Of a stretch of 33,212 bases of DNA, positions 17,661 to 19,287 are shown in pieces (positions within the stretch are counted from its first letter, which is position 1; the number at the start of each line of letters is the position of its first letter). This DNA comes from a virus: the IMG/VR virus record IMGVR_UViG_3300024520_000300, positions 1 to 33,212 of that record; one strand, given 5' to 3'. Made by a program: the position numbers and the translations under genes. The notes under the pieces are model-generated. The model did not search any database. It was not told where the DNA came from and saw nothing but the letters and a program-made list of their open reading frames with translations.

Positions 17661-18326
17661 TTAGCTGTGTGTCGCTTTTAGATTGACCATGAAATTGTCA
17701 TTCAAAATTCGACTAGCGTGCATGATTTTCCATCCCATCGTGGAACGTTGCTCAAGAGGATCGTCACCATGTCCTAAAGGCTTATAGATCGATGTTGACA
17801 TCGCCTGATTGAGCTTGACAGTACCGTATGCATCTTTACCAACAACGAAGTTGCTGTATGTTGAACCAGACAGATAAGCAAGTGGTGATAGTACCCAACG
17901 TGTATTACCAACAGAACCCCATTCAGCATCAATAACGCCTTGTTGACCGGGATATCGATTCACTGGAATGAACTCATCGATGTTATCAAGATCATCAAGT
18001 AAATCTGTATGTGCAAGAACCCAGTATGAGCTTCTGACCGGCGCTGTACCAAACTTATTGGCACCGTCGATCATCGGCATAAAGCGCTTCGCACTTTGAC
18101 CCTCAAGCGTTTTAACAACTGTTTGTATGTCAGCGTATGTCAACTCAGTAGGAGTTGAACCGTTCACACCGTTGCTACAGTTGTCTACGGACGCAGTACT
18201 CGCAAGCATGTCTCTAACAAGCTCGTCGATTGTTTCACCCATTTGTTGGCCTAAAATATCTGTCGTCTCGTTCAAGACGTTGTCTTCAACGATGTAATCC
18301 ACTTTGTCTGTGAGAGTTACATAATC
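17661..18326 (-). CDS. Major capsid protein, exon 2 (N4-gp56 family)
   Basis: Exon 2 encodes 221 residues and begins GAT TAT GTA ACT (DYVT). Joined to exon 1 it reads QLQQYG-DYVTLTDKVDYIVE, the expected run of N4-gp56-type capsid proteins, and then continues (DILGQQMGETIDELVRDML and so on) to the stop, giving a 309-residue protein. This is the HK97-fold shell subunit. A GTG inside the exon (18302) can open a frame, but it has no good site and would lose the N-terminal arm, so splicing is the better explanation. Confidence 0.88.
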   Translation of the reverse strand, partial: DYVTLTDKVDYIVEDNVLNETTDILGQQMGETIDELVRDMLASTASVDNCSNGVNGSTPTELTYADIQTVVKTLEGQSAKRFMPMIDGANKFGTAPVRSSYWVLAHTDLLDDLDNIDEFIPVNRYPGQQGVIDAEWGSVGNTRWVLSPLAYLSGSTYSNFVVGKDAYGTVKLNQAMSTSIYKPLGHGDDPLEQRSTMGWKIMHASRILNDNFMVNLKATHS

Positions 18327-19023
18327 CGTTCTGTTACTTTCGGCTCTCTCATGCCTATTGACCGTTACCGGCGGGGGAAACTCTTCGGATTCCCCTCTCT
18401 ATGTTTCCATAGAGTTCAGACTGTCGCTTCCACCTCTCGGCAGTTGGAATACTCAGTCGTTGCAGCTGCTCCTGTCGCATTAAGCTTCTTTATCTTTTGA
18501 TAAAGCTCCTCACGGCGAAGTAGTTCGTTTTCAGACAATCCAAGCTTTCTATTATGTGGAGTCTCCATTTTATCGAAGAATTCCAATATAATTTCAGCGT
18601 GTTGCTTTTTCACAATCAAATACGGCATCACATTATTAATAAAGTCAGGCAAATTATTGCTCCCACTTAATGCCCAACGCCATATTGATCGTCTGTTACG
18701 AACGCGTTCTTCTCTTACATTGCTATATCCAGTTGTTTCACATAAAAGATCAGGTATCCTTCTATCAACCATACCAATAGAAAACATCGGCATGTATTTC
18801 GGATTTTTATAATTTCCACCTTTAAGGCATTTAGCCTTCGGTGAAATCCTTCTCATCATAAAACAACCTTCTCCATCAATAATACCAGCGATGTAAGACC
18901 AAAGAACCGCTTGCTGAGGGTTATCATGCATATCACACTCCTTATGTAAATCTCTTAAGTATAACATGTTTAGACTTTCCCCATTAATCAATTCCAATTT
19001 TATTACGGCAATTATGCGGCTTT
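18327..19023 (-). ncRNA. Group I intron in the major capsid gene
   Basis: A 697-nt insertion splits the capsid gene. The 5' exon end UACGGU pairs with an internal guide GCCGUA at 19004-19009 (P1), placing the required U.G pair exactly at the splice site (19024/19023). The intron ends in G (18327), as group I introns do. The first six bases of exon 2 (GAUUAU) pair with AUAAUU at 19010-19015, adjacent to the guide (P10). After the ORF a hairpin with a GAAA tetraloop (CTCTATG / CATAGAG) and a GGGGAA / TTCCCC hairpin are seen. The full core (P3, P7) was not resolved, so the subgroup is open. Confidence 0.88.
18416..18931 (-). CDS. LAGLIDADG homing endonuclease inside the intron, 171 residues
   Basis: The start chosen is the ATG at 18931 (MHDNPQQ), 6 nt after AAGGAG; a longer frame to 18997 has no such site. 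The LAGLIDADG helix is residues 13-22 (YIAGIIDGEG), with the acidic residue of the active site at the end. Only one such motif is evident, so the enzyme would act as a dimer. The C-terminal half (ending near the LPDFINNVMPYLIVKKQHAE segment) is typical of phage and organellar intron-encoded members. It cuts intronless alleles to spread the intron, with the target presumably the joined capsid exon sequence. The stop lies 88 nt before the 3' splice site, so the ORF sits in a loop of the ribozyme. Confidence 0.85.
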   Translation of the reverse strand: MHDNPQQAVLWSYIAGIIDGEGCFMMRRISPKAKCLKGGNYKNPKYMPMFSIGMVDRRIPDLLCETTGYSNVREERVRNRRSIWRWALSGSNNLPDFINNVMPYLIVKKQHAEIILEFFDKMETPHNRKLGLSENELLRREELYQKIKKLNATGAAATTEYSNCREVEATV

Positions 19024-19287
19024 ACCGTACTGTTGTAGCTGAACTGTAAGATCAGTCACATCAAGCGAACTGCCCGCAGGTGTAACGCCCTCAGACAATG
19101 GTGTGGTGGCTGTCGAAATGGCTGAATAACGACGATATTTCACAGTATCGCTGTTCTTAGCCGGAAGTGTCTTTTGTTGTGCAAAAAGATTAAAAATTTG
19201 ATTTCCGCGAGCGCGAGCAAGCAGCAACTTATCGTAATAAGTATCAACTGCCGGCGCGACTTCGGATGTAGTCGTCATATTAGCCAT
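19024..19287 (-). CDS. Major capsid protein, exon 1 (N4-gp56 family)
   Basis: Exon 1 encodes residues 1-88 from the ATG at 19287, which follows the GGGGAGGG leader. The segment (KLLLARARGNQIFNLFAQQK, then RRYSAISTATTPLSEGVTP) is the N-terminal arm of N4-gp56 capsid proteins. Read on without splicing, the frame ends after three intron codons (KAA, stop). It must therefore be spliced to exon 2 at 18326 for a full shell protein. Confidence 0.88.

Follow-up and report, generated by a model that had tools for sequence, protein, structure and literature searches.

The 33,212-nucleotide (nt) viral sequence analysed here, record IMGVR_UViG_3300024520_000300 of IMG/VR (called the window, over its full length), carries a major capsid protein (MCP) gene in two parts, separated by 697 nt that hold an open reading frame (ORF) of their own. 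The gene and all other window features described below lie on the minus strand. Exon 1 (19024..19287, 88 codons) belongs to an ORF that starts at 19287, reads ...QQYG and then runs through KAA into a stop codon. The C-terminal ORF begins at 18302, and coding resumes at 18326 with GAT TAT GTA (DYV), so that exon 2 (17661..18326) starts with GATTATGTA. Deletion of 19023..18327 (697 nt) gives a 309-residue MCP, the junction predicted after splicing being CAGTACGGT joined to GATTATGTA. This spliced protein matched TIGR04387 (N4-gp56 MCP) over positions 1-321 of 324 with 244.5 bits (cut-off 60), more than the sum of the separate halves (84.8 bits over positions 1-86 for exon 1 and 135.6 bits over positions 97-321 for the part of exon 2 from 18302 on). 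PHROG 1357 (major head protein) and Pfam Phage_capsid_4 gave the same identity; the split gene is that of a major capsid protein of the N4-gp56 family.

A search with the C-terminal half alone returned no MCP relatives, and an alignment of the spliced protein with phage homologues was needed to fetch them from IMG/VR. The 80 closest MCPs, which are the best-scoring matches and thus favour uninterrupted genes and give no estimate of how often the gene is interrupted, all aligned with the spliced protein without a break at the site, most of them with QYGDYVTLTD or a close variant at the junction. The nearest uninterrupted MCP (locus L016; loci outside the window carry L numbers) is 66% identical. 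Q86, Y87 and G88, the residues at the site, do not vary among the spliced protein and its phage homologues as aligned. The initial annotation of this DNA had proposed that splicing rather than frameshifting explains the split gene and restores the reading QYG-DYVTLTD; this agrees with 80 of the 80 homologues, and the intact genes of related phages, in which a different junction was looked for, have the same one. Two records that appeared interrupted in tblastn (MT837590 and MT836218) were set aside, as they contain merely an in-frame protein insertion.

The 697 nt (18327..19023) start after a U, end in a G and have the anatomy of a group I intron. The last bases of exon 1, UACGGU (19024..19029), can form a 6-bp P1 with the internal guide sequence GCCGUA (19004..19009), with a U.G pair at the splice site, and the adjoining AUAAUU (19010..19015) can form P10 with GAUUAU at the start of exon 2 (18326-18321), extendable to 8 bp. 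Both pairings and the terminal G had been pointed out at the outset and are present as described. Further inside, the 5' strand of P3, UUGGAAU (18991..18997), forms 7 bp with AUUCCAA (18444..18450, position read from the sequence), and P7 pairs A[C]GACUG, with its bulge (18454..18460), and CAGUCU (18418..18423). P8 (18430..18443) is a hairpin with a GAGA loop; it is followed by the P9 hairpin CUCUAUG-GAAA-CAUAGAG (18397..18414) and by P9.1 (18374..18395). The P4-P5 domain (18915..18983), made of P4 (UGGGG/CCUCA, its covariation read by eye) and a long P5 hairpin, was taken from a minimum-energy fold with a modest z of -1.8. In this fold, no more than suggestive at that z, base pairs of the P5 hairpin cover the ribosome-binding site and the start codon of the intron ORF (18416..18931).

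Through relatives of the protein encoded by this ORF we found further introns at the same boundary. At least 16 other full introns lie at exactly the same QYG boundary, or at least 17 with that of the window, and others lie elsewhere in MCP genes. The same-boundary introns, which belong to other, uncultured phages (L096-L098, L101, L375-L385, L387, L390-L392), share with the window the site, P1, the type of core and an I-CreI-type endonuclease of about 30-48% identity, whereas the sequences of P3, P8, P9 and P10 differ in a compensating manner. P1, UACGGU/GCCGUA with its U.G pair, was found in all 17. P10 tracks the sequence of exon 2 in most of them (AAAUU/GAUUU in L096, ten pairs in L378, AUGU/ACAU in L385 and L387); the pairing fails in L380, and for L392 the score was taken with the 3' end in the wrong place. 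A P3 of 7 bp is present in 16 of the 17 introns with highly varied sequences, and when partners were exchanged between introns the observed pairing was never reached (0 of 2000 permutations). For the 3' part of the core, we used a gap-free alignment of 12 introns, in which every cell (100%) of P7, P8 and P9 is paired. Changes on both sides were seen in 13 of 18 pairs, including three of the six P7 pairs, a covariation reached by none of 500 shuffles.

We then relied on a covariance model, R1, built from 11 relatives with the window excluded. In the 33-kb window R1 had exactly one match, at 18465-18396 on the minus strand, with 72.4 bits and an E value of 4.8e-17. It also recovered Intron_gpI, already annotated in Staphylococcus phage 110 (L014), as well as introns of Nitratidesulfovibrio, Alicyclobacillus and Vibrio phages, and it gave no match in 391 kb around 53 intact MCP genes of a related capsid lineage. 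The assignment to group I made in the initial annotation is thus upheld by a model that had not seen the window, by compensatory changes and by restoration of the frame; the P3/P7 core that was to be looked for is there, and both helices covary in relatives. The intron of Nitratidesulfovibrio phage SRB7757 (L011) resembles that of the window in that its P7-P9 region is found by R1 (57.6 bits), but the gene that holds it is not a capsid gene, and the matched part contains no LAGLIDADG ORF. The P9-P9.1 segments of these two introns (window 18427-18370; L011 2501-2558) are about 90% identical in DNA, a likeness suggesting that distant phages have recently exchanged parts of their introns.

The intron ORF encodes 171 residues with the motif AGIIDGEG. 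Its start is most likely the ATG at 18931, located behind the Shine-Dalgarno sequence AAGGAG (18938..18943, read from the sequence), rather than the TTG at 18997. A profile of the protein and three relatives matched I-MsoI/I-CreI in a PDB profile search (E 7e-16), and Foldseek with an AlphaFold model of low confidence (pLDDT 59) returned I-CreI as best match with probability 1.00. The product is, as first annotated, a predicted LAGLIDADG endonuclease; by profile and by fold it is a homing endonuclease of the I-CreI/I-MsoI type. I-CreI and I-MsoI, themselves intron-encoded in algal chloroplasts, have the same single-motif LAGLIDADG fold but are only about 20% identical to it and have another target. 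The ORF ends at 18416, its stop codon overlapping P7, and the C-terminus of the protein (GAAATTE...REVEATV, window 18416-18470) is encoded by the P6-P7-P3-P8-P7 part of the ribozyme and is conserved in close relatives. In this segment a single sequence is predicted to serve both as protein-coding sequence and as ribozyme core. A related endonuclease gene lies directly before the MCP gene of Stenotrophomonas phage StenR_269 (L010, 3940-4460). There the start of the MCP appears twice with different codons, as MSFSGMHFS-stop before the endonuclease and as MSFSGMQYGD after it, as if the original gene start had been pushed aside by an insertion and a new one put in its place.

From these data, a mobile group I intron with a LAGLIDADG endonuclease almost certainly interrupts the N4-gp56 MCP gene after the invariant QYG. 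Several points weigh against this interpretation. Splicing and cleavage are deduced from the sequence. P4 and P6 are short; P4 was taken from the minimum-energy fold, and P6, of just 3-4 bp, was read by eye. The match of the ORF to Pfam LAGLIDADG_1 (22.3 bits) is 0.8 bit under the cut-off of 23.1, and the low confidence of the AlphaFold model of the endonuclease counts on the same side. Finally, the fold check with Rfam RF00028 that had been proposed gave the right place and strand, aligning at P9, but the score of 19.2 bits (E 0.024) was under the gathering score of 50, and Rfam at gathering score gave no match across the whole window. The weak score is probably due to the ORF, which separates the two halves of the core; two ORF-bearing introns of L003 likewise scored low against RF00028 (31 and 29 bits). 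Over the genome and 50 related records RF00028 missed most of these introns, so that a dedicated model was needed, and its gathering score is a curation threshold, not a structural feature.

The alternative that survives best accepts the intron but takes its ORF to be mainly a splicing helper (maturase) and not an endonuclease. LAGLIDADG proteins that aid splicing exist, for example in Thermotoga (PMC3984707), and the C-terminus of the ORF overlaps the core in most close relatives; on the other hand, the catalytic position in AGIIDGEG is still acidic, and relatives occur at several sites and on either strand of the host gene, as mobile endonucleases do. We consider a maturase role unlikely. 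Much less probable still is a group I intron by descent that has lost splicing, that is, a decayed copy in a dead capsid gene. The intron is known here from its sequence, and two of the five pairs of the window's P8 are kept just as G.U wobbles. Against this, none of the core helices tested is disrupted and the endonuclease has an open reading frame; L001 and L002, two other contigs, share exon 1 and the endonuclease as far as they reach. It is equally hard to credit that the locus holds two genes, or halves joined by frameshifting, with the middle ORF as a freestanding inserted endonuclease gene. Such a freestanding relative does exist, the StenR_269 endonuclease, 30% identical and located between the scaffold gene and the MCP gene. 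However, frameshifting cannot cross 697 nt with many stops, the two halves are the N- and C-terminal parts of one fold with a junction that is exact in 80 homologues, and covarying P1, P10, P3 and P7-P9 helices would be purposeless between two genes. An intein was ruled out because the exon frame meets stop codons from codon 4 of the insert onwards, and frameshifting by these stops and the length of the insert.

According to the self-splicing intron interpretation, UACGGU of exon 1 would pair with the internal guide sequence to form P1 and guanosine would attack after the U; P10 would then hold exon 2, which begins with GAUUAU behind the terminal G, in place for ligation. Splicing would yield an uninterrupted capsid mRNA, as expected from the anatomy. 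The I-CreI-type endonuclease would cut intronless capsid alleles at the conserved sequence, and repair would copy the intron in. The P5 hairpin over the ribosome-binding site may keep translation of the endonuclease low on the pre-mRNA, a suggestion tied to the fold mentioned above. An effect of the intron on competition between phages is plausible; the intron endonuclease of phage PhiPA3 (PMC11620839) offers an experimental parallel. In practical terms, the intron corrects the annotation of a capsid gene that looks broken.

Introns in phage capsid genes are already known. The MCP gene of mycobacteriophage LittleE contains an intron of about 820 bp whose splicing was demonstrated by RT-PCR and N-terminal sequencing (Pope et al. 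2013, PMC3706429). Like that of the window, it lies in a phage MCP gene, ends in G after a U and carries a LAGLIDADG-type, I-CreI-related ORF (PMC3706429), but the LittleE capsid is of the HK97 type of siphoviruses and the ORF is antisense, whereas the window has an N4-gp56 capsid, an ORF on the same strand and a different site. Lactococcal phage Tuc2009 has an intron in a capsid subunit gene as cited in PMC3706429, and by the description given there it compares with the window as another intron in a phage capsid gene. What distinguishes the window is the capsid family, the site and the commonness of introns within the family. We found no papers on introns in N4-gp56 capsid genes in the literature searched, which leaves out most subscription papers. 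The site described here is a well-supported addition to the few known phage capsid introns.

That capsid-gene introns are uncommon, as the initial annotation had stated, does not hold for the N4-gp56 family, in which they are common: besides the introns, at least 17 in number, at the QYG boundary, others occur elsewhere in the gene. Among 77 further loci, fetched by a profile of capsid-associated endonucleases and hence not giving an unbiased rate, 37 have an N4-gp56 MCP that falls into two or more matched pieces, with the endonuclease inside it or next to it. In many loci the interruption comes some 15 codons later, and the endonuclease ORF runs opposite to the capsid gene; wherever Rfam or R1 finds a core in these second-site inserts, it is on the capsid strand. 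Group I-type inserts with an antisense LAGLIDADG ORF, as in LittleE, were seen at this second MCP site in L112, L136, L148, L150, L160, L168, L171 and others. Single MCP genes interrupted two to four times occur in L188 (2082-4633), L137 (4873-2292), L099 (1560-4318) and L003 (2680-5312), and the multiply interrupted genes include ORF-less inserts of about 176-240 nt resembling minimal group I introns. The N4-gp56 capsid gene, expected to be among the most expressed phage genes, thus appears to have been repeatedly invaded by homing introns.

Outside the window, a related capsid lineage with FYG-TYV at this position has its frame broken there by just 28-56 nt. After removal of duplicates there were 53 distinct mini-inserts (for example L182 2734-2763, L190 2703-2739, L206 3660-3698 and L222 973-1003, with L254, L260, L284 and others), with a predicted spliced junction of TTTTACGGT to ACCTATGTA; they have P1, P10 and a terminal G, and no room for a catalytic core. 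A P1 of 6-8 bp with U.G at the cut is present in all 53, although the pattern scan behind most of them fixed GUGCCGUA, so that the search itself partly dictated P1 and the first two pairs of P10. The terminal G, also found in 53 of 53, was not a search criterion. Nor was the third P10 base of the guide selected. It lies opposite the silent third base of the Thr codon (ACN) that opens exon 2, and the two form a Watson-Crick pair in 53 of 53, with all four types of pair represented (C-G 37, U-A 8, G-C 4, A-U 4). The rest of the insert can form a further helix with exon 2, of 8.0 bp on average compared with 5.0 bp for exchanged partners (0 of 1000 permutations), a test inflated by shared ancestry. 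R1 detected a core downstream on the same strand in 51 of the 53 mini-insert loci, 101 to 1163 nt from exon 2, and the two remaining contigs have merely 436 and 1109 nt of downstream sequence. The 53 intact MCP loci of the same lineage, spanning the 391 kb mentioned above, contain none. The lineage has no isolate in the phage collection searched, and its matches in bacterial and archaeal genomes are contigs of metagenome-assembled genomes.

We find it fairly probable that the mini-inserts are core-less group I introns removed by the core of a complete intron located downstream in the same gene, since they keep P1, P10 and the terminal G but no core, and since a neighbouring core is present in 51 of the 53 loci as against none of the 53 intact ones. 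Full-length introns with the same P1, built like that of the window, occur in FYG-type capsid genes (L385, L387, L391 and L392) and may represent the type from which the mini-introns arose by core loss. The main rival is translational bypassing similar to that of T4 gene 60; yet the codon before resumption (ATG, TTG, CTG, AAG, TAG and others) does not match the take-off codon GGT, and the terminal G, P10 and the neighbouring core suit splicing rather than bypassing. The sole analogue of removal by a neighbouring core that we found is that of the engineered spliceozymes, in which a group I ribozyme acts in trans to excise a short intron that lacks a core (PMC4094466, PMC4509937); these are laboratory constructs derived from Tetrahymena, whereas the phage case would be a natural one, deduced from loci outside the window. 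Our search for papers on core-less group I introns in phages found none, most subscription papers being outside the literature searched.

To our knowledge, no earlier natural case of one group I ribozyme removing a second, core-less intron has been described, and the mini-introns, if the splicing interpretation is true, would be the first. They would then bear directly on a long-standing idea, namely that self-splicing introns whose substrates lose their core can give rise to a splicing machine acting in trans. Two similar core-less inserts were also seen at another MCP position, VDVD|CRVRVY, in L129 (about 4640-4560) and L137 (about 4645-4590), both on the minus strand. Read by eye, they have an 8-bp P1 (AUGUGGAU/GUCCACAU and AUGUCGAU/GUCGACAU), a P10 and a terminal G.
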